The notes beneath the pieces were generated by a model. The model had not been told where the DNA came from. It saw nothing but the letters and a program-made list of their open reading frames with translations, and made no database searches. DNA of 64,000 nt from positions 496,001-560,000 of the forward strand of contig NZ_JAVLVU010000001.1 in the NCBI RefSeq assembly GCF_031951985.1, given 5' to 3'. Every line of letters starts with the position of its first letter. Position 1 is the stretch's first letter. Origin of the DNA: Mucilaginibacter terrae. Its GTDB lineage: Bacteria > Bacteroidota > Bacteroidia > Sphingobacteriales > Sphingobacteriaceae. Positions 1,109 through 19,676 of this stretch are shown here, in pieces. The position numbers and the translations under genes were made by a program.

Positions 1109-1486
1109 TCAGGATGCAACATCTACCTGCATTGGTAAATATTTGTTCACTTTATTCACCAAATCATCAATATCGTATGGTTTTTCAATAAAGTCATTTG
1201 CTCCCGCGGTAAGGGCTATTTCACGACCATCTGTACTTGCCGAAATTACAATAACAGGTAGATTAACAAACGCAGGATTTTGCCTCATTTGTTTTACGAT
1301 CTGGTCGCCCGATATTCCCGGCATCCATAAATCAATTAATACAAGGTCAGGTTTTTCAAGCGCTATGGTGGATATAGCTGTCAAGCTGTTTAACACCGTA
1401 ATTACATTAAATCCTTCGGTTTCAAGTATTGTTGCGGTAATATCAAGTATATCCTGCTCGTCGTCGCAAATAATTATTTTAGGCAT
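1109..1486 (-). CDS. Single-domain response regulator coupled to the LOV kinase
   Basis: This 125-residue receiver domain has D8 and D9 for metal binding, the phospho-acceptor D52 in LVLIDLWMP, S82 and K102 in the EKPY motif. There is no DNA-binding or enzymatic output. Its ATG (1486-1484) shares one base with the TAA stop of the upstream LOV histidine kinase (TAATG arrangement), which implies translational coupling and makes it the likely cognate receiver of that kinase. The kinase itself lacks a receiver, which fits. A 7-residue tail after the last helix is not conserved in the family. Signalling by protein contact is inference. Confidence 0.92.
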   Translation of the reverse strand: MPKIIICDDEQDILDITATILETEGFNVITVLNSLTAISTIALEKPDLVLIDLWMPGISGDQIVKQMRQNPAFVNLPVIVISASTDGREIALTAGANDFIEKPYDIDDLVNKVNKYLPMQVDVAS

Positions 1487-3018
1487 TACAAGGGCTTGTT
1501 AATAGGTATGGTAAAATTGAACACTGAACCTTTTCCTTCATCACTCTCTACCCACAATGTGCCCTTATGCTCTTTAACTATTTGGTTGCTTACATACAGG
1601 CCAACGCCCACGCCCGGAAACTTTTCGGTAGTGTGCTCTGCACGGTAAAACCTTTCAAAAATTTTCTTCTGATCATCGGCATTAATACCAATGCCTTTAT
1701 CAGTTATGGAAACCTTAATATATTCGCCGGTTTTGCCTACATAAATCATTACCTCGTTAGCAGCAGGGGAGTATTTAACGGCATTACTTAATAAATTAAT
1801 CAGTACCTGCTCTAACCGGCCAAAATCGGCATTAACAAAGGTGTGGCATTTACTTGCAATATTTAATTGGTGAGTTTTGGTAGTTACCTGAACGCCTTTT
1901 ACAGCATCTTCTACCAATTCATCAAAATTAAATGAGGTATAATGAAATTCTACTTTCCCTGATTGTATTTTGGAAACGTCAAGCAGGTCATTAATCAATC
2001 TTTCGAGTCTTCCTATTGATTTGGTAGCTGTTGCAAAGCCATTAAAATAATCAGTATCGTTTTTCTTCTGGGCCATACGTTCAAGCAGTTGAATGTTGCC
2101 TTTGATACTGGTAAGGGGAGTTTTCATTTCATGGCTTGCAATGCTTATAAAGTCTTCCTTGCGTTGTTCAACCTCACGTCTTTCGGTAATATCTTCAATG
2201 GCCAGTAATATGCGGCTTTGATACTTTCCCTTTAATACGATCTGCCTGGCGTTAAGTACCAGCAGCTTCCTGCCAATGTTCGGGAACTCGATTTCTAATT
2301 CAAAGTCTTCAAAAGGATTGTTATGTGGTAATACGTTAATGAGCAGGTTTTTTAACTCCGGAATATCCCACTGGCCGTTGCCGAAGCTCAATAAATCCTT
2401 GTCAATAATGTCGCGGTTGCTTACCTGAAAAAATTTACAGAAATGCTCATTTACGCCTAATACTTTGAGGTTATCGTCTAAAACAACCAAACTTTCCCTT
2501 ATTGTTTCGATAATGCTGGCCAGGTACGCTTCACTTTCCTGAAGATCCAGGGTGCGTTCAGATACGCGCTCTTCTAAATTTGCTTTTTCATCCGCAAGGG
2601 CCGATTCGGCATCTTTACGCGCGGTAATGTCATTTTGTATACCAATAAAATGAGTAATGTTTCCTTCCTTATCTCTTACGGGAGAAATCATCAATTCATT
2701 CCATATCATTTGCCCGTTCTTTTTATAATTCCGAAGCTCAACCTTGCTATGTTCGCCTTTTATAATGGCTTGCCTTAAAGTTTCGCGGCCTTCCTGGGTG
2801 CGATCACGGCCTTGCAAAAAACGGCAGTTTCGCCCTATAATTTCATCTTTGGTGTAACCTGTTATTTTTTGAAAAGCATCATTGCAATAAATAATAGGTT
2901 GATCGGGCTGTAAATTATCAGTAATAACTACACCATTGCTCGATGCACTAACAGCTGCTGCAAATATTCTAAAGTCGGCATGTTCAATATTCGGGAACTG
3001 GTCAAGAAAGGCATCCAT
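1486..3018 (-). CDS. LOV-PAS histidine kinase (blue-light sensor)
   Basis: This is a soluble 510-residue kinase. Residues about 15-135 form a LOV domain with the diagnostic GRNCRFLQG motif. C65 is the expected flavin-adduct cysteine, N97 and N107 the flavin-binding asparagines, and Q128 in FIGIQ the flipping glutamine, so photochemistry should be intact. A coiled-coil linker (about 136-165) leads to a second PAS domain (about 165-280), then HisKA with H296 in IASHEMKTPL, then an HATPase domain with N-box NLLSNAVKYSP, DKGIGI, RFYR and GVGVGLY. No membrane segment is visible. It is coupled to the downstream receiver gene by a one-base overlap and lies divergent from a phytochrome gene. A blue-light role is inferred from known LOV kinases; no target gene is visible. 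Confidence 0.93.
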   Translation of the reverse strand: MDAFLDQFPNIEHADFRIFAAAVSASSNGVVITDNLQPDQPIIYCNDAFQKITGYTKDEIIGRNCRFLQGRDRTQEGRETLRQAIIKGEHSKVELRNYKKNGQMIWNELMISPVRDKEGNITHFIGIQNDITARKDAESALADEKANLEERVSERTLDLQESEAYLASIIETIRESLVVLDDNLKVLGVNEHFCKFFQVSNRDIIDKDLLSFGNGQWDIPELKNLLINVLPHNNPFEDFELEIEFPNIGRKLLVLNARQIVLKGKYQSRILLAIEDITERREVEQRKEDFISIASHEMKTPLTSIKGNIQLLERMAQKKNDTDYFNGFATATKSIGRLERLINDLLDVSKIQSGKVEFHYTSFNFDELVEDAVKGVQVTTKTHQLNIASKCHTFVNADFGRLEQVLINLLSNAVKYSPAANEVMIYVGKTGEYIKVSITDKGIGINADDQKKIFERFYRAEHTTEKFPGVGVGLYVSNQIVKEHKGTLWVESDEGKGSVFNFTIPINKPL

Positions 3019-3361: not shown

Positions 3362-4876
3362 ATGGCTGAGAAAAAGAACTATGATTCGGATTTCTGCGGT
3401 AGCTTACCCCTAAATCAAATCAATGTTGTACAAGATCATGGGTATTTACTGGCAATAAAAAACGAAACCCTAAACGTAATTCAGTTCAGTGAAAATCTGG
3501 CCGGCATTATATTGCTTGAGCTTAATGACTTGCTGAATAAGCAATTAAGCGACCTGTTTAAACCCGATGATTTACATAAAATAACCGATAGGTTGCAGTT
3601 TGGGCTTCAGCTCAAGGCGCCATTGGTTATCGAGTTGATGGGGCATCAAATGGAGGCGCTCATTCATCAAAAAGAAGGTTTCTTCATTTTAGAGATGGAG
3701 CGGAAGCAATATACCGACCGATTTTTTACCGAGGCATTTGAAGGTGTAAAATTAGCAATAGCGCGCCTGGAAGCTTGCCGTACTGTTGAAGAGGTAAGTG
3801 CGGTTGGTATTGCCGAAATTCAAAAAATTACAGGTTTTAATGGTGTAATGATGTACCGGTTTGATGAAGACTGGAACGGTACTGTTATTGCTGAGGAAAA
3901 ATCGGGCGAGTTGGAACGTTATTTGGGGCATACCTTTCCTGCTTCTGATATACCCAGGCAGGCACGCCAGCTGTATTTAAAAAACCCATACAGGCTTATA
4001 TCTAACCGTGAGTATAAACCAGTACGCCTTTACCCTGTATTAAACCCTCTTACCAAATCATTTACCGACCTTTCAGATCTCAATATAAGAGGAGTTGCAG
4101 CCGTGCATCTCGAGTATTTAAAAAATATGAATGTTACGGCTTCCATGTCAATAAGGGTAATATATCATGGTGAGCTTTGGGGGCTTATAGCCTGTCATCA
4201 TACCACAACCAAATATTTAAGTTTAGAAGTTTGTTCGGTTTGCGAATTGCTGTCCACCATCATTTCTGCCCGTATCGAGTCGTTATCACACAGGCAGATG
4301 GCCGATGCCGAAACTTATTTGCAAAAAGAGCAAACTAAGCTCATGGCACAGGTTTATGCTACAAACGATTTGTTTGAAGGTTTACTTAACGAGGGCGGTA
4401 TAAATTTAGCCGGTGTTTTAAATGCTGATGGCGTTGTGGCGGTAATTAATGGAGAAACAGCAGGTTTAAAAAACATTCCTCCGCCAGAATTTGTTGAAGA
4501 CCTGATTTTATGGCTGCAAACCCGCAATATTGAACGGGTTTACGCAACAGACCGTTTACCCGATGCTTTTGAAGATGCAGGCGAGGTTAGCGGGCTTGCC
4601 AGCGGCATACTTGCATTACCCATTAATTTGGAGCGCGGCGATGTTATTATTTGCTTCAAAGGTGAGGTAAAACGCGAAATAAAATGGGGAGGCAACCCCA
4701 ATGAGGCCATAAATTTTGAATTGGATGGGAAAAATTACCATCCCCGAAACTCCTTTAAGCTATGGCAGCAAACTGTGCACCATACCTCACTGCCCTGGAC
4801 CGACCAGGAAGTGGCTGCTGCCGAGGTGCTAAGGAGTTTCATTTATGAGTTTTATACAAAGAACAACAGGTTTTGA
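3362..4876 (+). CDS. Bacteriophytochrome photosensory core without kinase (PAS-GAF-PHY)
   Basis: This 504-residue protein matches the photosensory half of a bacterial phytochrome. The N-terminal PAS region carries C12 in DFCGSLPLNQINVVQDHG, the position where bacteriophytochromes attach biliverdin. The GAF domain (about 130-310) has YRFDEDWNG, the FPASDIPRQAR signature with D196, H249 in AVHLEYLKNM and H280 in ACHH. The PHY domain (about 330-500) has a tongue with WGG (442-444) and the PRNSF motif (461-465). There is no kinase or other output domain; the protein stops after the PHY helix. The stop overlaps the start of the next gene, a kinase lacking a light-sensing domain, so the pair looks like a split phytochrome kinase. 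No heme oxygenase is present in the window. Red/far-red sensing is inferred from the family. Confidence 0.93.
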   Translation: MAEKKNYDSDFCGSLPLNQINVVQDHGYLLAIKNETLNVIQFSENLAGIILLELNDLLNKQLSDLFKPDDLHKITDRLQFGLQLKAPLVIELMGHQMEALIHQKEGFFILEMERKQYTDRFFTEAFEGVKLAIARLEACRTVEEVSAVGIAEIQKITGFNGVMMYRFDEDWNGTVIAEEKSGELERYLGHTFPASDIPRQARQLYLKNPYRLISNREYKPVRLYPVLNPLTKSFTDLSDLNIRGVAAVHLEYLKNMNVTASMSIRVIYHGELWGLIACHHTTTKYLSLEVCSVCELLSTIISARIESLSHRQMADAETYLQKEQTKLMAQVYATNDLFEGLLNEGGINLAGVLNADGVVAVINGETAGLKNIPPPEFVEDLILWLQTRNIERVYATDRLPDAFEDAGEVSGLASGILALPINLERGDVIICFKGEVKREIKWGGNPNEAINFELDGKNYHPRNSFKLWQQTVHHTSLPWTDQEVAAAEVLRSFIYEFYTKNNRF

Positions 4877-7800
4877 GTGTTTTAGTAAAAAATAGTAATA
4901 CAAGCAACGCGATAAACGATCGCTATATTATTACCATCGGTGCATCAGCCGGGGGGTTAGAGGCTATTCATGAGTTTTTTGACCACATGCCGCCCAACTC
5001 GGGCTTTACCTTTGTAGTAATACAGCATTTATCGCCCGATTATAAAAGCCTCCTGGTTGAACTGGTGAGCAAGCACACCCATATGAAGGTGCGTGAGGCC
5101 GGTAATGACATGTTACTGGAACAAAACTGTGTTTATATAATTCCCAGCAAAAAAACTATGACCATTAGGCACCGTAAATTACGGCTTGCCGACAAGGTGA
5201 AAGATAGAACACCCAATAATGCCATTGATACCTTTTTGCTGACACTTGCCAATGATGTAAAAGAAAAGGCAATTGCCATCATTTTATCGGGCACAGGAAC
5301 GGATGGCAGTAAGGGAATTGATGCCATAAAAGAATGCGGCGGAATGGTGATTGCGCAAGACCCCACCACCGCTAAATTTGATGGCATGCCCAACAGTGCC
5401 ATAGCAACCGGTAATACCGATTTTGTTTTGCCGCCAGCTAAAATGCATACCGAGATATATAATTATGTAAACCATAGTTATGTACCCGATTTAGAAAAAG
5501 AACTGCGCGACGATGAGCATTTAACGGAGATATTTGATATAGTTTCGCAGCAAACCGGCCAGGATTTTAACTTATACAAAACGCCCACTATACTGCGGCG
5601 TATTGCCCGCCGGCTTGCAGCAGCCGATGTGCATAATCTGAATGATTATCTGCAATATATACAGGATAAACCGGCCGAGGCCAAAATTTTAGCAAAAGAG
5701 TTTCTAATCGGTGTTACCAAGTTTTTTAGGGATAAAGCCGCTTTTGAAAAACTGCAACAGCATGTTATTCCCGAAATTGTTGCCTCAAAAACTGAGGGTC
5801 AAACCATAAAGGTATGGATATGTGCCTGCAGTACAGGCGAGGAGGCTTATTCCATAGCCATACTTTTCCACGAGGTGCTAAAAAATAATGACCTCGACCT
5901 GGAACTTAAAATATTTGCTACCGACCTTGATGAGGAAAGCATACGTATAGCTTCAAAAAATTGCTACCCTGCTTCGAGTGTAAAAGAGGTGGAGAGCGGT
6001 ATCTTGAAAAAATACTTTACTAAAAACTCCGATGGTACATTTTCTATAATTCCTGAGGTGCGTAAAAGGGTGGTGTTTGCCGCTCACAATGTAATTAAAT
6101 CGCCGCCGTTCATCAAAAACGACTTGATCTCATGCCGTAACATGCTGATTTACATGAACAGCATTTTGCAGCAAAAAATATTAACCACCTTTCATTATTC
6201 ACTTGTGCCCAACGGTTATTTGTTCCTTGGGTCGAGCGAAAATGCAACCAGCATTATGGAAGGTTTGAGAGAGGTAAGCGGTAAGCTAAAAATATACCAA
6301 CGCACCGGCAATATCAAATTTAACCTGCACCATACTTATACAACCGCTGCGCTGCCTGTTCCGGCTGCACCTAAAAAATTACCCGTTAAAGATGCCGATC
6401 CTAAGCGTACAACCGCTGAGGAGTTCCAGGCGCTAATGACAGGGCAGATGGGCTACGTTGGCGTGTTTATTGACAAGGGCTTTGTAATTAAAGAAACGCT
6501 GGGAGAATTCAGTAAATATCTTGCCTTGCCTAAAAAGAAATTGGAATTAAACTTGCTCAATATGGTGAACAAGGACATTTCTATTTTATTAAGTACATCT
6601 ATTCGTAGGGCATGGAAAGATAACGAGGTAATGGCCGTTACCGGGACATTGGATGGTAATCGCATTTTGCAAATGACTATAAAACCACCCGACGACCTTT
6701 CTCCAAATGATTATACACTGGTTTTACTGAATGAGTTGCTGGTAGATGCGCCGGTTAAAAGTGTTGAAGCCGCCGATATTGACCATTTGAGTTCGCAAGA
6801 CGAGTACCTTATGGAAATGGAAAACGCCTTGACCGAAACGCGTTCCAATTTGCAATTGGCGGTTGAGGAAATGGAGACCACCAACGAAGAGTTACAGTCT
6901 TCAAACGAAGAGCTGATGTCGGCCAATGAAGAATTGCAATCAGGTAACGAAGAGTTACAATCGCTAAACGAAGAGTTGCATACCCTGAATACAGAGCATC
7001 AGCAAAAAATACGCGAACTAACCGAGTTGAATGAGGACCTGGACAATTATTTCAGGAGCACCTCTATCGGGCAAATTTTTATCGACTCGAACCTGTTAAT
7101 CAGGAAGTTTAACCCGGCTGCCATAAATATGGTAAATATGATAGAGAGCGATATTGGCCGTCCTATCAACCATCTGTCAAACAACATAAAATATAATAAC
7201 CTCGATCATGATATTCATACGGTATTAGCTAATGATACTGTTATAGAAAAAGAAGTAACCCTTAATAACGGCACCAATAACCTGATGCGGATCATGCCTT
7301 ACTTAAAAAAGGGAGGTAAGATAGATGGCGTAGTTATAACCTTTATTGATATAACCGATATTACGCGGTTAAACAATATGATTGCCGGGGTGTACAACGC
7401 CAGTTCGGCAGCTATACTGGCTTTTGGGGCAGTAACAGATAAGAATGGAACGGTAATAAGTTATAGTTGTATAAGCCATAACCATGCGGCCCAGGAGCTG
7501 TTTCAAAAAACTGCCGAGTATTTTTTAAAGCAGCCCGGCCTCGATGAATTTGGCCAGCTATCAAAAGTGATTAACTCGGGTAATATTCAAAGAATTTTAG
7601 ATGCCGATCAGCCGTATCAAACTGAACTGCAGGTTACAGAAGGCCAATGGCATCAGTTAGTTGTTGGTAAAATGATTGATGGCTTTGTGTTGAGCTTTAA
7701 TGATATTACCAAGCGTAAAATTGCCGAGCAAAAATTAAAAAATAATTATGGCGAACTGGTAAAAGCCCGCGAGAGTTTAAGGTTATTAAATACTGGCCTC

Positions 7801-9702
7801 GAAGAAAAGGTAAGGGAGCGTACCAAAGAACTAAGCCAAAGTGAGGAGAGATTTAAATTTATATCTCAAGCCACAAACGATACCATATGGGATTGGAACC
7901 TGTTTACCAATACGATGTGGCGTAGCGACAATTTTAAAAATATGTTTGGCTATGAAATTTCTGACGACATCACCTCAATAGATCACTGGTTTAATAGCAT
8001 TCATCCTGATGACCGTCAGCGGGTTGAAAACGGCATATTTGAAGCTATAAATGGTCACCAGCCAAACTGGTCGGCAGAGTACCGTTTTCGCCGGGCAGAT
8101 GGTAGCTATGCCATAGTGCTCGATCGTGGCAGCATATTGCAGGATGAGCTTGAAACGCCTTACCGTTTGGTGGGTTCTATAATTGATATTAGCAAGCTTG
8201 TTGAAACAGAAAAACGCTTGAACAGCAGTGAGCGTAAGTTTCAGAAAGTGTTTGAATCGAACATGATCGGTATGATCTTCGCCGGTTTAGACGGTCATAT
8301 CATTGAGGCTAATGATGCTTTCCTTAATATGTTAGGCTACAGCCGCCAGGAGTTGGAATTGGGTGAACTTGATTGGAAAAAGCTTACCCCTGAAAAGTAT
8401 TTTGAGGTTAGTGACAAAGCTGTACAACAGCTTAAACAGGAAAAAGTATGCCCACCTTTTGAAAAACAATATATAAAAAGGGATGGAACCCTGGTTTCGG
8501 TATTGATGGGTTCAATTTTGCTCGAAGAGGAAGATCAGTCGACAGCTGTGAGCTATATAATTGACATTACCAATCAAAAAGAGGCAGAGCAAAAACGCGC
8601 CGAACTGCAAACCCGTCTTAACAGGCAACAGGAGGAGTTTACCAATATATTCAGTAATGCCCCGGCGCTTATAGCTATTAAACGTGGCCCTAACCTGGCG
8701 TATGATTTTGTTAACGAAGCCTATTCATCGTTTTTTGGCCCTGAGCATCATATTGGTAATACAACATCGTTAGCTCTTACAACCTCAAAAATGCCGTTTG
8801 GTAACCTGGAGCGTGAAGTGTTTAGCACAGGCAAAATATACCAGGGCAAGCAAATAGAAGTAAGCCGCGACAAGAACGCGGGCCATAACCCGGGCAAATG
8901 TTGGATTGATATAACCATTACGCCTGTATACAGTTATGATGGCGAGCATATTGATGGCGTAGCATTTTTTGGATATGAAGTAACCGATATAGTTTTAGGT
9001 AAATTGGCAACCGAAGAATTAATGAATCGTAAGGACGAGTTTATGAGCATTGCCAGCCATGAGCTTAAAACGCCAATTACCAGTATGAAAGGCTCATTGC
9101 AAATTGTACAGCGCATGATTGCCAAAATGGAAACCAACGAAACATTAAGCCGTTTTATTGATAAGGCTACACATCAAACCCAAAAGCTAACCACACTAAT
9201 TGATGACCTGTTAAATGTAACCCGAATACAAGAAGGTAAGGTGGTACTTAATTACCAGGAATTTAATGCAGTGGAAATGCTGAAAGATTGCATTGATGAT
9301 GTAAAAGCGCCTGGCATCAACCATAAATTAATTTTACATGCCAAGGATGACGTTATAATCAATGCCGACAGGCCGCGGATAGAGCAGGTAGTACATAACT
9401 TTTTAACCAATGCCATCAAATATTCGCCCGGTGCCGATACGGTTGTGGTTTATTGCAGCGTGGATGAAAATATGTTCAAAGTTGAGGTTAAAGATTTCGG
9501 CATTGGTATTCCTGAAGAAAAACTACCATACATATTCGATCGCTTTTACCGCGTACAGGAGTCATCGGCCCAGTTTTCGGGATTGGGGTTGGGGTTGTAT
9601 ATATCTTCAGAAATTGTTAAAAGACACCATGGCGAGGTAGGAGTTGACAGCGTTGCTGGCGAAGGCAGTACTTTTTGGTTTAAACTACCACTGAAAAAGT
9701 AA
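4873..9702 (+). CDS. CheB-CheR fusion PAS histidine kinase
   Basis: This 1609-residue multidomain protein starts with a CheB methylesterase domain (about 18-200) with the triad S25 (GASAGG), H52 (IQHLSP) and D144 (GTGTDGSKG). A CheR methyltransferase domain follows (about 215-480) with the SAM motif ICACSTGEE (316-324) and CRNMLIYM. A coiled coil of repeated NEELQS units (about 650-720), several PAS domains, HisKA (IASHELKTPITSM) and HATPase (NFLTNAIKYSP, DFGIGI, DRFYR, GLGLGLY) complete it. No receiver or membrane segment is present. The start is taken as TTG at 4873, overlapping the stop of the phytochrome gene; no in-frame ATG exists before the CheB core. Translational coupling suggests it is the kinase partner of that photosensor. 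No chemoreceptor is present, so methylation is unlikely to serve chemotaxis here. Confidence 0.9.
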   Translation: MSVLVKNSNTSNAINDRYIITIGASAGGLEAIHEFFDHMPPNSGFTFVVIQHLSPDYKSLLVELVSKHTHMKVREAGNDMLLEQNCVYIIPSKKTMTIRHRKLRLADKVKDRTPNNAIDTFLLTLANDVKEKAIAIILSGTGTDGSKGIDAIKECGGMVIAQDPTTAKFDGMPNSAIATGNTDFVLPPAKMHTEIYNYVNHSYVPDLEKELRDDEHLTEIFDIVSQQTGQDFNLYKTPTILRRIARRLAAADVHNLNDYLQYIQDKPAEAKILAKEFLIGVTKFFRDKAAFEKLQQHVIPEIVASKTEGQTIKVWICACSTGEEAYSIAILFHEVLKNNDLDLELKIFATDLDEESIRIASKNCYPASSVKEVESGILKKYFTKNSDGTFSIIPEVRKRVVFAAHNVIKSPPFIKNDLISCRNMLIYMNSILQQKILTTFHYSLVPNGYLFLGSSENATSIMEGLREVSGKLKIYQRTGNIKFNLHHTYTTAALPVPAAPKKLPVKDADPKRTTAEEFQALMTGQMGYVGVFIDKGFVIKETLGEFSKYLALPKKKLELNLLNMVNKDISILLSTSIRRAWKDNEVMAVTGTLDGNRILQMTIKPPDDLSPNDYTLVLLNELLVDAPVKSVEAADIDHLSSQDEYLMEMENALTETRSNLQLAVEEMETTNEELQSSNEELMSANEELQSGNEELQSLNEELHTLNTEHQQKIRELTELNEDLDNYFRSTSIGQIFIDSNLLIRKFNPAAINMVNMIESDIGRPINHLSNNIKYNNLDHDIHTVLANDTVIEKEVTLNNGTNNLMRIMPYLKKGGKIDGVVITFIDITDITRLNNMIAGVYNASSAAILAFGAVTDKNGTVISYSCISHNHAAQELFQKTAEYFLKQPGLDEFGQLSKVINSGNIQRILDADQPYQTELQVTEGQWHQLVVGKMIDGFVLSFNDITKRKIAEQKLKNNYGELVKARESLRLLNTGLEEKVRERTKELSQSEERFKFISQATNDTIWDWNLFTNTMWRSDNFKNMFGYEISDDITSIDHWFNSIHPDDRQRVENGIFEAINGHQPNWSAEYRFRRADGSYAIVLDRGSILQDELETPYRLVGSIIDISKLVETEKRLNSSERKFQKVFESNMIGMIFAGLDGHIIEANDAFLNMLGYSRQELELGELDWKKLTPEKYFEVSDKAVQQLKQEKVCPPFEKQYIKRDGTLVSVLMGSILLEEEDQSTAVSYIIDITNQKEAEQKRAELQTRLNRQQEEFTNIFSNAPALIAIKRGPNLAYDFVNEAYSSFFGPEHHIGNTTSLALTTSKMPFGNLEREVFSTGKIYQGKQIEVSRDKNAGHNPGKCWIDITITPVYSYDGEHIDGVAFFGYEVTDIVLGKLATEELMNRKDEFMSIASHELKTPITSMKGSLQIVQRMIAKMETNETLSRFIDKATHQTQKLTTLIDDLLNVTRIQEGKVVLNYQEFNAVEMLKDCIDDVKAPGINHKLILHAKDDVIINADRPRIEQVVHNFLTNAIKYSPGADTVVVYCSVDENMFKVEVKDFGIGIPEEKLPYIFDRFYRVQESSAQFSGLGLGLYISSEIVKRHHGEVGVDSVAGEGSTFWFKLPLKK

Positions 9703-9943: not shown

Positions 9944-12900
9944 ATGCCCAAATGCATTATTACATGTATCGTAGTTCTGATGTCGTTGGGTATATATGCC
10001 AGTGATGTTAAGGCGCAGCCTAACTGTAAAATTGAGCATTACTCTACCGAAGACGGCTTGTCGCACAACCGTATCATGTGCATGATGAAAGACCGTGATG
10101 GTTTTATGTGGTTTGGTACATGGGATGGTTTGAACAGGTTTGACGGGCATAACTTTCTCGCTTATAAATCCCGCCCTGGCGATACCTCAAGTTTGAAAAA
10201 CAGCCGTATCCAGGATATTGTAGAAGACCAGTCGGGCAACCTTTGGCTAAAGGCTTATGATGACCGTATTTACCGGTTCAATAAAAAAAACGAACAATTT
10301 TTCCTGATACAAATACGCGGGGTTAAGGCTAAAAGCAATACGCCTGCGTACGATAAAATTAAGTTATCCCGTTCGGGCGAAATATGGCTAACTACGGTTA
10401 ATAACGGTATTCATTGTTTTACAAACCCTGGCGCTAAAAAGCCAGCTTACGTTTCCTTTGGTACCGATTATGATAACAACCATAAACTACCATCATGTAA
10501 AATAAATTTCTTAAATGAAGATAATTCCGGTAAATTTTGGGTTGGCACATCAAACGGTGTGGTGGTAATCAGTAAAATTTCAAAAACAAAGCAGTACAAA
10601 GCTGTGCGTGTAATTTTACCTAAAACAGCAAGTGCCAATTTTACTGCAATTGCCGAAAATAATACCCGGGTTTGGTTAGGTACATCATCAGGTGAGATTA
10701 TTGGCTATGAAAAATCCTCCGGCAAATGCAAATTGATAAGGCCATCAAAAGAGGCGGTTACTACTATAATTATATCGCGTAATAGTAACTATATATATGC
10801 TACTACTGCTAAAGGGCAGCTTATAAAAATAGCTGCCGATGATGCCCAAAACAAAATTTACGAAATGCCTTCTGCCGGAAAATTTTTTGCCGCCTCGGAG
10901 GATAGCCAGGGCCTGATATGGTTGTGCCCTGAGTATCATGGAGCCATAAAGTTTGATCCTAATACAGGCCTGTTCAAAGTTTTTGATCAAAAGGCTGATA
11001 CCTATCATGACCCGCAATTGAGGTATTTTAAAGTGTTTGAAGACAAAAGCGGTTTGGTATGGGTAAGTATGCGCAACGGCGGTTTTGGTTATTATAACAG
11101 GCAAAAAGATGCCATTGAGTATTTTTATGATAAACCCGGCAGCCCCGATTATCACTTTTCAAACGTTATTGTTTCTTCTTATATCGACCCTTCGGGAATA
11201 CTGTGGTTAAACGCCGAAGACAAAGGCCTGAGCAAAATAGTGTTTTTGCATAACGACTTTACTCGTAAGCTGCTTGTCGAAAATTCAACACTGCGGTCGG
11301 ATAATGAAATACGTGGCATTGGATATGATAACCGCAAACGGTTATGGCTGGCTAATAAATCATGGCAAATATATGTAAACCAGGATGGTATACTGTCTAA
11401 AATTAAGTTTACCAATTCGCCGCCCGAAGGTATTGGTGCTGTTTATTCCATTATACAGGATGCAACAGGATCAATGTGGCTGGGAACTAAAAATAATGGT
11501 TTGTTTAAAGCCGAAGCTGTTGACGAAGCGGCTACTACTTTTAAACTTACACATTACAAGCATGATGCCGCCGATAAGTTCAGCATAAGCGGCAATTCGG
11601 TTTATTCGTTACTTAAAGACAGTAAGGGCCGTATTTGGGCTGGCACATATGATAACGGCCTTAACCTTGTACAAACCGAAGGCAACAAGATTAAATTTTT
11701 AAATGCCAGGAATGTATTTGCAGATTTGCCCGAGGAGAGTTTTCGGCGGGTTAGGTATGTGCAACAGGATGCTGCAGGCCGCATTTGGGTTGCCACAACC
11801 GATGGCTTATTAGTGGTAAAGATGCTGGGTAAAGGATATAATCATCAGCTGATAACTTACAGTAAAATACCGGGCGATATTACAAGCTTGGGTAAAAATG
11901 ATATTCAATTCATCTATCGCGATTCTAAAAACAATATGTGGCTGGCTACCTCGGGTGGTGGCCTTAACAAGGTTATTGGGAATGATCCTTTTAAAAAGCT
12001 AACGTTCAGATCATACACCACCGAAGATGGCTTGAACAGTGATTACATATTAAGTTGTGTTGAAGATAATGAGCATAAACTTTGGCTGGCCACCGAAAAC
12101 GGTTTATCAAGATTTGATCCTAAAACCGGGCAGGTACAAAATTATGATTCATCAGATGGTTTACCCAAGGCAGGATTTTCTGAAGCCGCGAGCCTTAAGC
12201 TTAGTTCGGGGCATCTAATTTTTGGAGGATTGAATGGATATGTATCATTTAACCCGGCCGAAATTGTTGAACACAAGGTTAAAGCCAATATGGTTTTAAC
12301 CAACCTCCAGGTAAACAATGCCGATATTGTTACGAATGATAAAAGTAGGATATTAAAGCAAAATATAAACCAGGTTCCGGAGTTAAAACTCAAATGGAAC
12401 CAAAACACCATCAGCATCGATTATTCGGTGCTTGATTTCCGGCTTAACAAAAAACAATCATACGCCTATCGTTTAGTAGGTTTTGATAATGAATGGCGGT
12501 CAAACAAATCGCAGCGCCGTGCAACATACACTGATCTGCGTCCTGGAACCTATAAGTTCGAAGTTACCAGTTCAAACTTGGGGGCATATTCCAATAGACC
12601 CTACAAAAGCTTAATTATCAAAATTGCTCAACCGCCATGGCTAAGCTGGTGGGCATTTATTATATATATCATTTTGGCTGCGGTGATTATTGAAACGGTA
12701 CGGCGTACGTTGGTAACCCTTATTAAACTAAGACATCGTATTGCATTAGAAAAGCATCTGGCCGAGTTAAAAACTAATTTCTTTACTAATGTTTCGCATG
12801 AATTGCGGACACCGTTAACCCTCATATTAAACCCAATTGAAGAATTAAAAAGTGATGAAAGCCTAAGCCATAGGGGTAGGGCTCATGTGGAGATGGTGAG

Positions 12901-14329
12901 CCGCAATGCCCAGCGTATGGAGCGGTTTATAAACCAGTTGCTTGATTTACGTAAAGCCGAAAGTGGTAAAGCCGTATTAAACATAGCCAATGTTGAACTG
13001 GTAAAACTGTTAACCGATATTGCCGGTTATTTTACAGAGGCTGCGCGCGATAAAAATATCCAGCTGCTATTTAATTTACCCAAACATCCAGCTATGGTGT
13101 GGCTCGATGTAGAGAAGTTCGACATTATTATATATAATATTCTTGCAAATGCTATAAAGTTTACGCCCTTAAACAAAGTAATCAGCCTATCACTTCAAAT
13201 CAATGAAGCGCAGTCAACTTATCAAATTGAAATTGCAGATCAGGGTGTAGGAGTACTGGAAAAGGATCTGGAGAATATTTTTAAACTTTATTATACCACC
13301 GCAAACAGTGTAGGTGGTACTGGCATAGGATTGGCCTTTGCTAAAGAGCTGGTAGAATTACATAGCGGAAAAATTTCGGCCTGCAATAATACCGAAGGCG
13401 GTTTAACCGTATCCTTAACCATACCGTTGGGAAGCAGCTATTTAACCGGACGTAAGATTACCTATGCTGATAATCCTGAAATACCTAAAAACTTTGAAGA
13501 AGGTATAAATGAGCTTCTTTTACATCACAATGTACAACAGGCTAATACCTCTGCAAATTTACCGTTGCTTTTAATTGTTGAAGATAATCCTGACCTGCGT
13601 AGCTTCCTGCAGTTACAGCTAAGTGATATATACCGTATCCTACTGGCTGATAACGGCGTACAGGGCTTTAATAAAGCCACAGAACTACTGCCCGATATAA
13701 TTTTAAGTGATGTAATGATGCCTGAAATGAACGGCATACAAATGTTGGATAAATTAAAGAACAACGCTGTTACCAGCCACATACCGGTAATACTTTTGAC
13801 CGCCAGGTTTGCCGTTGAACATCAGATCGAGGGCTTACAATACGGTGCCGATTATTACATCACCAAGCCCTTCCATAAAAACCTACTGCTATCAGCCATT
13901 CAAAACGTGCTTGAGCAGCGTAAGCGCATCTTCGAGAAACTCAGTTTGGGGAAAAATGTAGTACTGGAGCCGGCCCAAATTCAGATTACATCGGGCGATG
14001 AGATTTTTTTGAAGAAAGTAATTGATGTGGTAGATGAGCAAATGGCCAACATTGATTTTAATATTGATGATATGGCCGGATTATTAAACCTCGGTCGTTC
14101 TACATTTAACAAAAAAATAAAGGCTCTTACCAATTTAACACCTGTTGAGCTTGTTCGCGAAATGAGATTGAAAAGAGGGAAACAGTATCTTAATGGAGGA
14201 GAGCACACCATATCTGAAATTGCCTATCTCATAGGCTTCGGAAGCTCAAAATATTTTAGCACCTGCTTTAAAGAACAATTTGGTTTAAGCCCGTCCGATT
14301 ATCAACGAAATAATATCAAAAGCCGTTAA
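9944..14329 (+). CDS. Hybrid two-component sensor/regulator (HTCS) of the pectin locus
   Basis: This 1461-residue one-protein signalling system has a signal peptide (ends near VKAQ, about 24-26) and a long periplasmic double beta-propeller made of repeats such as GLSHNRIMCMMKDRDGFMWFGT and NLWLKAYDD. A Y_Y_Y domain (about 820-890), a membrane helix (WWAFIIYIILAAVIIE), HisKA (NVSHELRTPLTLI), HATPase (NILANAIKFTP, DQGVGV, GGTGIGLAF), a receiver (LSDVMMPEMNG) and a C-terminal AraC-type helix-turn-helix follow. Such proteins sense oligosaccharides in the periplasm and activate adjacent SusC/SusD genes. Here the genes immediately downstream encode pectin enzymes, so the likely ligand is a pectin fragment. 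The N-terminal ATG is preferred because it gives a clean signal peptide. Confidence 0.95.
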   Translation: MPKCIITCIVVLMSLGIYASDVKAQPNCKIEHYSTEDGLSHNRIMCMMKDRDGFMWFGTWDGLNRFDGHNFLAYKSRPGDTSSLKNSRIQDIVEDQSGNLWLKAYDDRIYRFNKKNEQFFLIQIRGVKAKSNTPAYDKIKLSRSGEIWLTTVNNGIHCFTNPGAKKPAYVSFGTDYDNNHKLPSCKINFLNEDNSGKFWVGTSNGVVVISKISKTKQYKAVRVILPKTASANFTAIAENNTRVWLGTSSGEIIGYEKSSGKCKLIRPSKEAVTTIIISRNSNYIYATTAKGQLIKIAADDAQNKIYEMPSAGKFFAASEDSQGLIWLCPEYHGAIKFDPNTGLFKVFDQKADTYHDPQLRYFKVFEDKSGLVWVSMRNGGFGYYNRQKDAIEYFYDKPGSPDYHFSNVIVSSYIDPSGILWLNAEDKGLSKIVFLHNDFTRKLLVENSTLRSDNEIRGIGYDNRKRLWLANKSWQIYVNQDGILSKIKFTNSPPEGIGAVYSIIQDATGSMWLGTKNNGLFKAEAVDEAATTFKLTHYKHDAADKFSISGNSVYSLLKDSKGRIWAGTYDNGLNLVQTEGNKIKFLNARNVFADLPEESFRRVRYVQQDAAGRIWVATTDGLLVVKMLGKGYNHQLITYSKIPGDITSLGKNDIQFIYRDSKNNMWLATSGGGLNKVIGNDPFKKLTFRSYTTEDGLNSDYILSCVEDNEHKLWLATENGLSRFDPKTGQVQNYDSSDGLPKAGFSEAASLKLSSGHLIFGGLNGYVSFNPAEIVEHKVKANMVLTNLQVNNADIVTNDKSRILKQNINQVPELKLKWNQNTISIDYSVLDFRLNKKQSYAYRLVGFDNEWRSNKSQRRATYTDLRPGTYKFEVTSSNLGAYSNRPYKSLIIKIAQPPWLSWWAFIIYIILAAVIIETVRRTLVTLIKLRHRIALEKHLAELKTNFFTNVSHELRTPLTLILNPIEELKSDESLSHRGRAHVEMVSRNAQRMERFINQLLDLRKAESGKAVLNIANVELVKLLTDIAGYFTEAARDKNIQLLFNLPKHPAMVWLDVEKFDIIIYNILANAIKFTPLNKVISLSLQINEAQSTYQIEIADQGVGVLEKDLENIFKLYYTTANSVGGTGIGLAFAKELVELHSGKISACNNTEGGLTVSLTIPLGSSYLTGRKITYADNPEIPKNFEEGINELLLHHNVQQANTSANLPLLLIVEDNPDLRSFLQLQLSDIYRILLADNGVQGFNKATELLPDIILSDVMMPEMNGIQMLDKLKNNAVTSHIPVILLTARFAVEHQIEGLQYGADYYITKPFHKNLLLSAIQNVLEQRKRIFEKLSLGKNVVLEPAQIQITSGDEIFLKKVIDVVDEQMANIDFNIDDMAGLLNLGRSTFNKKIKALTNLTPVELVREMRLKRGKQYLNGGEHTISEIAYLIGFGSSKYFSTCFKEQFGLSPSDYQRNNIKSR

Positions 14330-14524: not shown

Positions 14525-17500
14525 ATGAAGAAAGTTTTACTTCTTTCGTTCATGCTGTTTTTCCTCTGTTCGGCATGGGCACAAACCAAAACAGTAAATG
14601 GTAAGGTAACCGATGAACATGGCGACCCGCTTCCTAACTCTACTGTAAAAGTACAGGGAACATCAACAACAACAGTTACATCTGTAGATGGTGTATTTAA
14701 GATCACCATACCCGGGCCGCAATCGGTGCTTGTGATCACTTATTTGGGTTATAAGAACAAGGAAATAAGGATTGGCAATCAAACACAAATTACTGTTTCT
14801 TTAGAGCCCGATTTTAAAGCATTGAACGAGGTTGTGGCTATTGGCTACCAAACAGTAAGAAGACGCGACCTGGTTGGAGCTGTTTCATCATTAACTGATA
14901 AAGATCTGCGCGATAACCCCACGCTATCGGCAGCCGAGGCTATACAGGGTAAACTGGCCGGTGTACAGGTAACTATTGCCGATGGCCAACCCGGTGCTTC
15001 TGCAGATATTTATGTACGCGGACGAAACTCTATTACGCAAAGTGGAAGTCCTCTTTATATAGTAGATGGCGTGCAGATCGACAATGCCCTTAATGTCCTA
15101 TCTCCGCAGGATATAGCAAGTATAGATGTGTTAAAAGATGCGGCATCAACCTCTATATATGGTGCACGGGGTGCAAACGGGGTAATAATTATTACTACCA
15201 AGGGCGGTAAAAACACCAACGGAAAAACCTCGGTTAATTACAACAACAGCATGGCCATTCAAAAGATGCCTAAAGAGTTGGATGTAATGAAGCCTTTTGA
15301 TTATGTGCAATTTCAGTACGAGAGAGCTAAAATAACCGGCGATACGACATTTGTAACCCGTTTCGTACGTAACAGCGACCCTTATAGCAAGGTATTAGGC
15401 TATCAAAACTCAGATTTTCTTAACTGGCAGGATATTATGTTTGGGCGCAGTGCCTTGCAGCAAACACATAATTTAACAATTAACGGCGGCACCAAACAAA
15501 CCCAGTACAACCTAAGCGCAACTTACAACGATCAGCAGGGCATACTGCTTTTTACACGCTATAAGCGCGGGTTGATCAATTTTAGGTTCGACCATCAGGC
15601 CAGCCAGAAATTAAAAGTAGGCTTTAACGTTAGGTATAATAACAATGTTCTTTTAGGCCAGGGCACTACCGATCCGGGTAGTGCGAGCAATAGCAATTTA
15701 AGGCAAATTGTACGTTATATTCCGCTGCAAATTGCTAACCAGCCTATTGATTATTATGATGCTGCCGAGGCAACCGCAACAAGTGGCAACGGACTATCGC
15801 TCATTAACCCCTTACAGGAGTTTCAGCAGGAATACCGCAAGCGCTCAAACAATGCCATGAACCTGAACGCGTACCTTAATTTCAACGTGGTAAAAAATGT
15901 AACCGCCCGTACCGTTGCGGCTATTGATTACAACAACACCAATAGCCGGTCTTTCGACGACACGGTTACCTATAACTCGCGTACCACAGGCGCTAAGCAA
16001 CCCCTAATTTTGGTGGGTAACAATAACATTCGTACCATTAATCATTCCACAACGCTCAATTACAATAATCAATCGCTGTTTAAAAGCAAACACGCTATTG
16101 ATATATTGTTGGGAGAGGAGTTGTACCAAACTTTCACCTGGATCAACGGTTTAGACCTGCGTAATTTCCCGATAGGTACCTCGCCCGACCAGGCATTTGC
16201 AAACTACAGCCTTGCGCAAACGGTACAGCCGCCAACGGTTTCCGAAGTTCCTGTGCGTAACTTTTCGGTGTTTAGCCGTTTGAGCTACAATTATGCAGGC
16301 AAGTACTTTGCAACCTTTAACCTCAGGGCAGACGGAAGTTCGGTTTTCGGCCCGCTAAACAAATGGGGGTACTTTCCATCAGGTTCTGTTGCCTGGCGGG
16401 TATCTGATGAAGAGTTCATGAAGTCGCAGAATATAGTTTCTGACTTAAAGTTTAGGGCCAGCTACGGTACGGTAGGTAATAACCGTATTACGCCGTATTC
16501 GTTCGGCAACTTTTTTGCCCCGGGCCGTTCCTATTTCTTAAACGATCAGTTTAACTTCGGGGCAGCCACGGCGGCACTTGGTAACCCTAATTTAAAATGG
16601 GAATCGCAAATATCGCGTAACATAGGTTTGGATATAGCCTTTTTTAAAGGACGTTTCCAGTTAACCGTAGATGCTTACCGTAACACCACCAGTAACCTGC
16701 TGCTTAACAATGTTATCCCGGTTAACTCGGGTTACGGCAGCCAGTTTCAAAACGTTGGTGCCACCCAAAATAAAGGCCTCGAAATACAGTTCAATGGTAC
16801 CATTATTCAAAATAAAGATTTTAGATGGGGAGCAAGCTTTAACATCTCGTGGAATAAAAATATTATTAAAAGCCTGGGTGATCAGCAATTTTTTACGGTT
16901 AACTCCGGGTTCTTTAACACCGCCCAGCAACCAGCCGATTACCTGGTTAAAGTGGGCGAGGAAGTTGGAACCTTTTATGGCTTAGTAAATGATGGATATT
17001 ACCAAATATCTGATTTCAATACTGCACCATACAGCAACACGGCTTATCCGTTTGCTACAACCCGTTACACGCTTAAACCCGGCATACCGGTATCGGGCAT
17101 TACCTCAACAACCCTTCAACCAGGTACACAAAAGTTTAAAGACATCAATAACGATGGCCGCGTTACCACTGCCGATTTTACCGTGCTTGGCCATGCATTG
17201 CCAAGGGGTATAGGCGGTTTTGGTCAAAACTTTGCATGGAAAGGTTTTGATGCCAGCATCTTTTTAAACTTTTCGTACGGTGGTAAAATTGCCAATTACA
17301 ATAAACTGGAGTTTACCAGCACCTATTCAAACGGTGCTAACTTGCTAAGTGATTTTAACGACCGTTACCGTACCGTTGACCCCGCTACCGGCGCACAGGT
17401 GCAGTATGCAAGTGCCGCCACAGGGGCCATTGGTGCATCGCCCGAGGTTTTGCAGGCGCTTAACGCCAATGCCAGGTACTGGATACCGGTTCAAAGTGTG

Positions 17501-17782
17501 GAGTGGAATAATAACCAAAGCTACGCTCTTGAGAATGCGTCGTTTATTCGTGTAAACACTGTAACTATAGGATATACCTTACCGGCCAAATTAACTCAAA
17601 AGTATTCAATAACTAATTTGAGGGTATTTATTACCGGCAACAATCTCGGGACAATTACCGGTTACAGTGGCTACGACCCTGATGTGAGCACACGGCGTTC
17701 ATCACCTGTAACGGCAGGCGCCGATTATTCAGCCTTCCCAAGGGCACGTGTATTTGTAGCTGGTTTAAATCTTACATTCTAA
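14525..17782 (+). CDS. SusC-family TonB-dependent outer membrane transporter
   Basis: The 1085-residue protein has a signal peptide MKKVLLLSFMLFFLCSAWAQ, a carboxypeptidase-regulatory-like domain (about 22-100, VNGKVTDEHGDPLPNSTVKV), a plug domain with YVRGRNSITQSGSPLYIVDG and VIIITTKGG, and a beta-barrel ending in an aromatic-terminated strand (VFVAGLNLTF). Length and domain order are standard for SusC/RagA proteins that import oligosaccharides across the outer membrane using TonB energy. It is followed 13 bp later by the SusD partner and then by pectin-degrading enzymes, which points to pectic oligosaccharides as substrate. Substrate is inferred from context only. Confidence 0.96.
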   Translation: MKKVLLLSFMLFFLCSAWAQTKTVNGKVTDEHGDPLPNSTVKVQGTSTTTVTSVDGVFKITIPGPQSVLVITYLGYKNKEIRIGNQTQITVSLEPDFKALNEVVAIGYQTVRRRDLVGAVSSLTDKDLRDNPTLSAAEAIQGKLAGVQVTIADGQPGASADIYVRGRNSITQSGSPLYIVDGVQIDNALNVLSPQDIASIDVLKDAASTSIYGARGANGVIIITTKGGKNTNGKTSVNYNNSMAIQKMPKELDVMKPFDYVQFQYERAKITGDTTFVTRFVRNSDPYSKVLGYQNSDFLNWQDIMFGRSALQQTHNLTINGGTKQTQYNLSATYNDQQGILLFTRYKRGLINFRFDHQASQKLKVGFNVRYNNNVLLGQGTTDPGSASNSNLRQIVRYIPLQIANQPIDYYDAAEATATSGNGLSLINPLQEFQQEYRKRSNNAMNLNAYLNFNVVKNVTARTVAAIDYNNTNSRSFDDTVTYNSRTTGAKQPLILVGNNNIRTINHSTTLNYNNQSLFKSKHAIDILLGEELYQTFTWINGLDLRNFPIGTSPDQAFANYSLAQTVQPPTVSEVPVRNFSVFSRLSYNYAGKYFATFNLRADGSSVFGPLNKWGYFPSGSVAWRVSDEEFMKSQNIVSDLKFRASYGTVGNNRITPYSFGNFFAPGRSYFLNDQFNFGAATAALGNPNLKWESQISRNIGLDIAFFKGRFQLTVDAYRNTTSNLLLNNVIPVNSGYGSQFQNVGATQNKGLEIQFNGTIIQNKDFRWGASFNISWNKNIIKSLGDQQFFTVNSGFFNTAQQPADYLVKVGEEVGTFYGLVNDGYYQISDFNTAPYSNTAYPFATTRYTLKPGIPVSGITSTTLQPGTQKFKDINNDGRVTTADFTVLGHALPRGIGGFGQNFAWKGFDASIFLNFSYGGKIANYNKLEFTSTYSNGANLLSDFNDRYRTVDPATGAQVQYASAATGAIGASPEVLQALNANARYWIPVQSVEWNNNQSYALENASFIRVNTVTIGYTLPAKLTQKYSITNLRVFITGNNLGTITGYSGYDPDVSTRRSSPVTAGADYSAFPRARVFVAGLNLTF

Positions 17783-17795
17783 AAATAATTACGAT

Positions 17796-19676
17796 ATGAA
17801 GTTTCATATATATCATAAGTTAGCTGCGGTTTGCATACTCGCAATGGGCATGGCAGCTTCCTCATCCTGTAAAAAATATCTGTCACCCGAGCCTTTATCA
17901 TCATTTAGCCAGGACTATGTATTCAGCAATCTTCCTTATGCCAAGGCAACGGTAATCGGTATCTACAACAACCTTTCGGGGCAAAACTCTTACGGCTTGT
18001 ATTTCAGCGGTTATTATCCGTATGATACCGATGAAATGATGGGAGCCAGTGGTACTGCCGATGGCGAGCGCCGCGATTTGGCACATTATAACTTGTTAAG
18101 CACCAACGGGGGGATTGCTTCAGCTTTTTCCAATCAGTATTCCGGCATCGAGCGGGCTAATATTTGCATAGCCCAAATTCCTAAAATGGCGCTTTACAAC
18201 AATGGTACAGCTAACGAACAAGCGCAGCTTAAACGGCTGTATGGCGAAGCTTTAACGCTAAGGGCGCAATTTTACTTTGACCTTGTTAAAATTTGGGGCG
18301 ATGTGCCGGCACAATGGGAGCCATCGGCCGAGCAATCGAACCTGTTTTTGCCTAAAACGGATCGTGATACGATCTACAATCATATCCTGAACGATCTTAA
18401 AACCGCAACCGACCTTGTGCCCTGGCGTACCGAATTGAGCCGCATAGGGGATGCTGCCGATGAGCGTATTACAAAGGGGGCTGTAAAGGCGCTCAGGGCA
18501 AGAATTGCATTGTTTAGAGGAGGATACTCGTTAAGACGCGCCAGCAAGCAAATGGAACGTCGTCCCGACTATTTAACTTATTACAAAATTGCCCGCGATG
18601 AATGTGCCGACATTATGGCCCGCCGTGACCAGCATACCTTAAATGCAAGCTATAAAGCACTTTGGCAAACTTATGTGTGTGGCCGCAATGCAAATGAACC
18701 CAACGGCGAGTTCTTATTTCAAATTGCCGAAGGAGGTAATACCGGTACAACAGATGGCCGTATAGGTGTTTACAACGGTACCCGTTTTGCCGGTGTGGGA
18801 GGCGGCTCGCTTAGTATTTTGCCAAACTACTATTACTATTTTGATTCAACAGATGTAAGGCGCGATGTAACCGTTGCCCCATATGAGATCAGGAACGATG
18901 GCAGGAGTGTTCAGGCTCACAATATTAATGTGGTGTACGATGGTAAGTTTCGCCGCGATTGGTGGTCTAACCCTGTTAACCCAACTCTGGCCACGCTTAA
19001 TTCGAGTATTAATTGGGTATTGATTCGTTTTTCGGATGTGTTACTCATGTTTGCCGAGGCAGAAAACGAGTTGAACAATGGTCCAACCCCCGCTGCTATT
19101 GCTGCAATTACCGAAGTATCAAGACGTGGGCATGGCAATAACGCCAGCCTGGTACCCGCAATACCTGCTGATTACGACGGCTTTTTTAAATTCTTGGTAA
19201 AAGAGCGCTATTTGGAGTTTGGTAACGAAGGCATACGTAAGTACGACCTCATCAGGTGGAATTTGCTTGCCAAAGCAATTAACGAAACCAAGGTAAATTT
19301 AGCTAACCTGGGTGCCACAACTCAGCTACCCATTGTTGCGCCTACCTACATGGCTCCGCCACCGGCGTATTGTATGACGGGAACCTTACCAAAATCAATG
19401 TATTACTGGACAACCTTGCCAACTGTATTCAATGGAAGTAATATTAACACCTATGATGATTCGCGCATGTTTGCAAACTCGCTTTACAAACCTTCGCCGG
19501 CAACTACTCCTGCCAATACATCAATGGTAAACTGGGTTGGTTTTAATGGTATTAATACCACATTTACAACGGTATTTGCAAGTTCGTTTAAACCTAATCA
19601 AAATGAGCTTTATCCTATTTATATTAACCAAATTACTGCAAGTAAAGGGGTACTAACACAAGATTACGGATATTAG
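17796..19676 (+). CDS. SusD/RagB-family surface glycan-binding lipoprotein
   Basis: The 626-residue product starts with a lipoprotein signal peptide ending ASSSC, with C25 as the lipidated residue and KK following. The body shows the SusD pattern: RAQFYFDLVKIWGDVP, repeated TPR-like helices, FAEAENELN and a C-terminal RYLEFGNEGIRKYDLIRW motif. SusD proteins sit on the surface lid of the SusC barrel and capture glycans. The 13-bp gap after susC and a hairpin after its stop suggest susC-susD are made at a higher level than the enzymes downstream. The specific ligand cannot be read from sequence; neighbours suggest pectin. Confidence 0.95.
   Translation: MKFHIYHKLAAVCILAMGMAASSSCKKYLSPEPLSSFSQDYVFSNLPYAKATVIGIYNNLSGQNSYGLYFSGYYPYDTDEMMGASGTADGERRDLAHYNLLSTNGGIASAFSNQYSGIERANICIAQIPKMALYNNGTANEQAQLKRLYGEALTLRAQFYFDLVKIWGDVPAQWEPSAEQSNLFLPKTDRDTIYNHILNDLKTATDLVPWRTELSRIGDAADERITKGAVKALRARIALFRGGYSLRRASKQMERRPDYLTYYKIARDECADIMARRDQHTLNASYKALWQTYVCGRNANEPNGEFLFQIAEGGNTGTTDGRIGVYNGTRFAGVGGGSLSILPNYYYYFDSTDVRRDVTVAPYEIRNDGRSVQAHNINVVYDGKFRRDWWSNPVNPTLATLNSSINWVLIRFSDVLLMFAEAENELNNGPTPAAIAAITEVSRRGHGNNASLVPAIPADYDGFFKFLVKERYLEFGNEGIRKYDLIRWNLLAKAINETKVNLANLGATTQLPIVAPTYMAPPPAYCMTGTLPKSMYYWTTLPTVFNGSNINTYDDSRMFANSLYKPSPATTPANTSMVNWVGFNGINTTFTTVFASSFKPNQNELYPIYINQITASKGVLTQDYGY

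Follow-up and report, generated by a model that had tools for sequence, protein, structure and literature searches.

How does a phytochrome sensor that ends without an output domain pass on its light signal? This question is raised by two overlapping genes in a 64,000-nucleotide stretch of the Mucilaginibacter terrae genome (hereafter the window; G000:C1:496001-560000 of a genome of 5.49 Mb in a single contig). A stand-alone photosensory core (3362-4876, forward strand) is followed on the same strand by a CheB-CheR-PAS-histidine kinase (4873-9702). A preliminary description of this DNA had proposed that light signals pass between the two proteins. The analysis reported here suggests that the two genes constitute one red/far-red two-component system in two proteins, in which the core would regulate the kinase in trans; we put the probability of this reading at about 0.75. 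Loci are cited below by L number and genomes by G number; f2 is a second family of the same class as the window's family.

The photosensory core

The first gene starts at ATG and encodes 504 residues. At the Pfam limit used for the two window proteins (E 0.01), only PAS_2 (3416-3700), GAF (3788-4261) and PHY (4325-4861) were found, and the PHY match ends at residue 500. A complete PAS-GAF-PHY module without an output domain, as described earlier, is therefore what the gene encodes. The AlphaFold2 (AF2) model of the core, built from a 19-row alignment, has a mean predicted local distance difference test (pLDDT) score of 82.6; its final helix spans residues 481-501, and the chain ends at 504. 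When the model was searched with Foldseek, the best matches in the PDB were phytochrome cores (FiDCB, PsBphP, Agp2 and its derivatives, and Cph1), with template modelling (TM) scores of 0.73-0.90. Pfam, AF2 and Foldseek thus agree on a PAS-GAF-PHY tridomain with the phytochrome fold. The core is not a canonical bacteriophytochrome (BphP): it scores 268 bits against the cut-off of 1040 of the model NF041576, and its chain stops after PHY, leaving no output module in the same polypeptide.

The bilin pocket of phytochromes is marked by its usual motifs, namely an N-terminal Cys, the Asp of PASDIP, a His and a Tyr of the GAF domain, and PRxSF of the PHY domain. These were followed in an alignment of 35 split cores and in the 19-row alignment, which includes ten cores from longer, full-length phytochromes. 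Cys12 (codon 3395-3397), Tyr165, Asp196 of PASDIP, His249, Tyr252 and the PRxSF residues 461, 462, 464 and 465 are invariant in both, so that Cys12 keeps its place as the candidate biliverdin-binding cysteine. His279 in the GAF domain is nearly invariant among the split cores and invariant in the mixed set. The PHY domain carries the WGGNP and HPRxSF motifs. Judged by its fold and pocket residues, the core appears to be a functional phytochrome sensor.

The proposed partner kinase

The second gene encodes 1609 residues and starts at TTG inside the stop region of the core, as had been noted earlier: the four nucleotides TTGA (4873-4876) contain both the kinase start and the core stop. The next in-frame start is an ATG 110 nt past the core stop. 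This TTG start is credible because a start at the later ATG would drop Ser25 of the CheB domain. A TTG start at -4 was seen in the window and five close relatives (L054-L058) only.

The kinase begins with a CheB methylesterase domain that lacks a receiver domain (4930-5457; Ser25, His52 and Asp144) and continues with the CheR_N and CheR methyltransferase domains (5521-6261), as found by Pfam and alignment. A PAS-like fold without a Pfam match follows (6451-6738); it is seen in the AF2 secondary structure, in a stretch with pLDDT 65-80, and the corresponding region of the paralog L178 does match Pfam PAS. The AF2 model of the kinase was built from nine rows and has a mean pLDDT of 62, and its secondary structure alone was used. 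A single helix of 87 residues (6799-7059) is predicted with low confidence and contains EE-rich heptads at about 6874-6990. Pfam then places PAS_10 (7039-7356), PAS_3 (7921-8178), PAS_9 (8269-8571) and PAS_4 (8650-8988), the HisKA dimerisation/phospho-acceptor domain with the sequence SHELKTP (9031-9237) and the catalytic HATPase_c domain (9367-9696). CheB with its Ser-His-Asp residues, CheR, PAS, HisKA and HATPase_c are thus combined in one chain. No GAF or PHY match was found in this chain at E 0.01, in agreement with the preliminary description of a kinase without a photosensor.

Conservation of the pair

The core was searched for in 149 genomes of the genus, in samples of 399 family and 395 phylum genomes (at most three best candidates scored per genome), and in 294 sampled genomes of f2 (at most five). 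Within the genus, 65 genomes have a match, and the matches fall into two groups. The split-core group, whose 35 loci are spread over 33 genomes, has frames of 434-568 aa; its 34 members other than the window's core are 47-71% identical to the latter. The canonical group shows identities of at most 33% and frames mostly of 733-811 aa, with three shorter ones (490, 605 and 655). The count leaves out two fragments found at contig ends of G015 (41% over residues 1-152). The closest named relatives, at 71% identity, belong to Mucilaginibacter (M. roseus and strain UR6-1), placed by NCBI in the family Sphingobacteriaceae. In the family search, 74 of 399 genomes, representing 11 of 25 genera, matched with E values no higher than 1e-90, and every frame was shorter than 560 aa. 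The same core clade also occurs in records of Pedobacter and Daejeonella, the latter belonging to the same NCBI family.

For the family, 75 loci were examined: the window, the 34 other genus loci and 40 of the 49 family loci outside the genus. Homology to the CheB-CheR (CheBR) kinase lies directly downstream of the core in every one of them, truncated in some by a contig end. Twenty f2 loci were fetched of 25 in the same score class; 15 have a CheBR kinase after the core, three a fused gene, one a kinase without CheB and CheR, and one no kinase. Since the arrangement recurs in 90 of the 95 loci, it is far from chance. In 89 of the 90 loci, the distance between the core stop and the nearest candidate kinase start ranges from -8 to +51 nt. 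The sole exception is L086 (G053), where the core is broken after 431 residues and resumes in a different frame, with an open frame for the partner kinase; this interruption is either recent decay or an assembly error.

In the genus, matches to the CheBR part form one group at 57-82% identity, followed by a gap to 43% and below. The genomes with this partner kinase coincide with those holding a split core: 33 have both and 116 have neither (Fisher p 8e-34, with phylogeny ignored; 3e-32 when G015 is counted as a core genome).

Trees, apparent co-transfer and natural fusions

The core tree, made by a quick method, contained 42 split, 5 special and 23 canonical cores. The split clade is set apart from the canonical cores with an SH-aLRT support of 100. 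Likewise, in a tree of 42 linked and 20 unlinked kinases, the linked ones are set apart from their unlinked paralogs (SH-aLRT 100). Two f2 loci group away from their own family: L204 with L067/L071 of the window's genus (99 in the core tree and 94 in the kinase tree), and L212 with L124/L126 of the window's family (98 and 100). Because both trees give L204 and L212 the same placements, this indicates two cross-family transfers in which the pair would have moved as a unit, provided that the assemblies are clean.

In three f2 loci, a core of the split clade is fused to a kinase: L201 (896 aa), L202 (901 aa) and L203 (752 aa). L201 and L203 carry HisKA and HATPase_c by Pfam; in L202, HATPase_c was matched and HisKA fell below the limit used. 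L201 and L202 each contain one additional PAS domain. The fused cores nest within the split clade with moderate support (96 for their own group, 82-94 for the next branches), and for this reason re-fusion is the simpler reading of these loci. Fused versions in relatives, which had been suggested as a check, do exist, although the kinases of all three lack CheB and CheR. That most species keep this core separate and others have it joined to a kinase provides strong indirect evidence that sensor and kinase would share a pathway.

These observations also bear on whether a canonical phytochrome was simply broken, one long protein being split through sequencing error or by a frameshift, programmed or not. 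In the window and the relatives nearest to it, the four-nucleotide overlap and a T-rich junction would fit such an event. However, the kinase occupies all three frames relative to the core across the 90 loci (36/30/24), mostly a few nucleotides after the stop, and sequencing error and programmed frameshifting were rejected because of this variation. Moreover, a core fused to CheB-CheR was not found among the matches listed for the genus (149), family (399), phylum (395) and f2 (294) genomes. The PHY frames listed for the phylum reached at most 977 aa, and all three fused members examined end in kinases without CheB and CheR. We therefore regard a broken gene as very improbable; the locus looks like a real two-part light switch.

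Heme oxygenase and the receiver

A source of biliverdin was named in the preliminary description as one of the requirements on which its proposal could fail. The window's genome does encode a heme oxygenase (PF01126 match at 2964204). Pfam recognises a heme oxygenase in 32 of the 33 genus genomes with a split core. The remaining one, G098, has a completeness of 70%, and a heme oxygenase open reading frame (ORF) is still present at its locus L085. In the stretches fetched for the 95 loci, 39 include a heme oxygenase gene. It immediately precedes the core in the same orientation in 31 of them and is divergent in five; in two it lies past the kinase and in one after a fused gene. Pfam confirmed the assignment in the six relatives tested and for the gene of the window's genome.

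In 22 loci, the gene immediately behind the kinase encodes a receiver. Where the kinase domain is window-like, the receiver is in all 15 cases 57-85% identical to one receiver of the window's genome; in the seven loci with a foreign kinase domain (25-27% identity), none is of that type. This receiver gene of the window's genome lies 95 nt after the heme oxygenase gene, and both lie 2.46 Mb from the core-kinase pair. The receiver peptide of L204 has it as its best match in the window's genome (69%, vs 42% for the next). The full order of heme oxygenase, core, CheBR kinase and receiver is found in 18 of 95 loci. Since this order recurs and the window's genome holds an orthologous receiver beside its heme oxygenase, the four genes were probably the ancestral set, of which the first and the last are now together 2.46 Mb away.

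The f2 loci L205-L211, L213-L215, L217, L219 and L220 retain the CheB-CheR-PAS part and have a different type of kinase domain (25-28% identity). In the seven of them with a receiver immediately behind the kinase, the receiver type differs as well, a pattern of modular output swapping. The joint change of kinase domain and receiver, with the CheBR-PAS part left in place, suggests that the latter is the fixed partner of the core; it should be mentioned that the loci are not phylogenetically independent.

It should also be mentioned that the window's genome encodes a canonical phytochrome kinase (L001; G000:C1:846601-848088), with PAS_2, GAF, PHY, HisKA and HATPase_c in 746 aa, directly followed by a receiver gene.

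Proposed signalling path

The following path is consistent with these results. Heme oxygenase, encoded elsewhere in the genome, would make biliverdin; the PAS-GAF-PHY core would bind it via Cys12 and photoswitch; and the core would then alter the activity of the neighbouring kinase. Contact would most likely be made through the conserved CheB/CheR/helix/PAS part of the kinase, which might finally phosphorylate the single-domain receiver encoded beside heme oxygenase. The photochemistry, the physical binding and its site, the direction of regulation and the phosphotransfer are all steps that we infer.

Several points weigh against regulation in trans. Conserved adjacency can arise from co-regulation without contact. 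In L216, the core is paired with a separate PAS-HisKA-HATPase kinase directly 3' of it that has no CheB or CheR, and L218 has no adjacent kinase. Eleven clade-specific core positions were found, and none of them is specific to the trans arrangement; the re-fused cores retain 30 of 33 such residues, so that no clade-specific position marks an interface. Heme oxygenase by itself is no proof of use by the split core, because the canonical phytochrome kinase is also present. Finally, the comparison of linked with unlinked kinases draws its unlinked rows from the window's genus only, and at most six best candidates per genome were scored in the genus search with the CheBR part.

The core might thus have no contact with the kinase at all, signalling elsewhere or merely holding biliverdin, with adjacency serving co-expression only. 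L218, where a split-clade core and a heme oxygenase gene stand with no kinase adjoining, is what such a role would look like. The full co-occurrence in the genus, the apparent co-transfer and the fusion of the same core clade to kinases in three loci argue against it. In addition, where the CheBR kinase is absent, another kinase takes its place by fusion or adjacency in four of five loci. A core without contact therefore seems unlikely. As to the signal between two proteins proposed earlier, the functional coupling of core and kinase is well supported by genomic evidence (adjacency, co-occurrence, apparent co-transfer and the fused cores), and the signal may pass by direct complex formation.

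Models of phytochrome signalling generally assume that one uninterrupted helix links PHY to the kinase. The pair would be a direct test of whether a light signal can cross a protein-protein interface, with the fused relatives as controls, and it would be a natural two-component far-red optogenetic part.

CheB, CheR and possible adaptation

Ser, His and Asp of the CheB site do not vary in any of the 62 alignment rows (42 linked, 20 unlinked), and the presumed S-adenosylmethionine (SAM)-site residues of CheR are mostly conserved in the same rows. The helix with the EE heptads is the most conserved of eight kinase segments, with a median identity of 80% to that of the window; its heptads read NEELQSS/NEELMSA. 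The spacing EE-x-x-S-x-x-EE resembles that of chemoreceptor methylation sites. The chemoreceptor domain PF00015 has no match in the window's genome, which thus shows no methyl-accepting chemotaxis protein, and at E 0.001 it was found in 8 of 149 genus genomes. Of the 33 genomes with the pair, two (G033 and G086) are above the cut-off and G116 is below it.

These features raise the possibility that the pair works as proposed above and also adapts: CheR would methylate and CheB demethylate glutamates of the EE-heptad helix of the same kinase, resetting its activity in steady light, so that receptor, adaptation enzymes and kinase would be packed into two soluble proteins. The kept catalytic residues, the scarcity of chemoreceptors (two of 33 genomes with the pair) and the position of the heptads in the most conserved segment are in favor of this. 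However, the unlinked paralogs have similar heptads and the same CheB residues, so that the feature is not specific to light sensing, and cis adaptation is for that reason a hypothesis for the whole kinase family. The heptads are no more than a resemblance to methylation sites, a long polar coiled coil could yield such repeats for structure alone, and G033 and G086 carry both the pair and chemoreceptors. We consider adaptation by this route as possible and propose it tentatively. The combined scheme, in which a detachable soluble bilin photosensor drives the kinase in trans while a methylation/demethylation module acts in cis on the EE-heptad helix, appears doubtful as a whole; if true, chemotaxis-type adaptation would have moved into a light-sensing two-component system in bacteria mostly without chemoreceptors. 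In any case, kept CheB/CheR active-site residues in such genomes raise the question of adaptation for ordinary two-component kinases.

Comparison with known systems

Canonical BphP kinases (such as DrBphP, Agp1 and PsBphP) share with the core the PAS-GAF-PHY fold, the N-terminal Cys, the Asp/His/Tyr pocket, PRxSF and a genomic heme oxygenase. They differ in that the kinase is here separate, much larger and equipped with CheB and CheR, and in that the core clade is distinct.

The unlinked CheB-CheR-PAS kinases of the genus resemble the partner kinase in CheB, CheR, the EE-rich helix and the PAS order, and are 32-42% identical in the CheBR part. Unlike the phytochrome-linked kinases, which form their own group, they have no phytochrome core nearby: none was found in the 20 fetched loci (best tblastn E 2.3). 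In L169 and L170, a receiver-like ORF follows the kinase, as judged by ORF starts. L178 (3896-8481) encodes by Pfam a CheB-CheR-PAS protein (994 aa) without a kinase domain, and immediately after it a separate PAS-HisKA_3 kinase (530 aa); the ORF layout of L179-L181 and L188 is similar. This clade is another split arrangement, with the division placed elsewhere.

Two known kinds of separate photosensor, both described in PMC6798134, may be compared. Short LOV proteins have no covalent effector and presumably act in trans, as the core would; they are flavin-based blue-light sensors, whereas here a bilin sensor has a conserved kinase gene as its partner. In the SRII:HtrII sensory rhodopsin-transducer complex, a separate photoreceptor also acts on a separate chemotaxis-type transducer; it is composed of a membrane retinal protein and a true chemoreceptor, whereas the present system has CheB and CheR in one chain with a kinase. 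According to PMC4422448, Bacteroidetes phytochromes are the most ancient and sensor-kinase rearrangements occur, but that study selected fused proteins only. PMC6848086 describes a phytochrome with a kinase domain of its own in a putative operon that also contains heme oxygenase, a receiver and a hybrid kinase; PMC1183210 yielded nothing relevant. In the open-access PMC literature searched, the pairing of a stand-alone PAS-GAF-PHY core with a CheBR kinase was not found described, which is weak evidence of absence.

Neighbouring genes

Divergent from the core, a LOV-PAS-histidine kinase is encoded at 1486-3018 (reverse strand), so that a blue-light kinase stands beside the red-light pair. Its GRNCRFLQG sequence is presumably the LOV motif, and LOV photoreceptors are among its best PDB matches. 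As a conserved neighbour it has no clear counterpart at the other 74 family loci; the other ORFs with this kinase as their best-matching query are those of L063, L082 and L132 only (26-38% identity), and two of these cover the kinase part only. Downstream of the LOV kinase, Pfam identifies two single-domain receivers (578-937 and 1109-1486, both on the reverse strand), which are probably its partners. The receivers near the LOV kinase (rrA and rrB) were considered as cognate receivers of the core-kinase pair and are disfavoured, because they are 29-38% identical to the receivers behind the window-like kinases of the 15 loci named above, vs 57-85% for the receiver beside heme oxygenase.

A scan for promoters and terminators gave 19 promoter-like sites, vs 19.2 in shuffled sequences, without excess. 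On the other side of the pair, 9944-14329 (forward strand) encodes a hybrid two-component protein, in which Pfam finds a Reg_prop propeller, Y_Y_Y, HisKA, a receiver and an AraC-type helix-turn-helix (HTH) domain, and is followed by the large ORFs 14525-17782 and 17796-19676.

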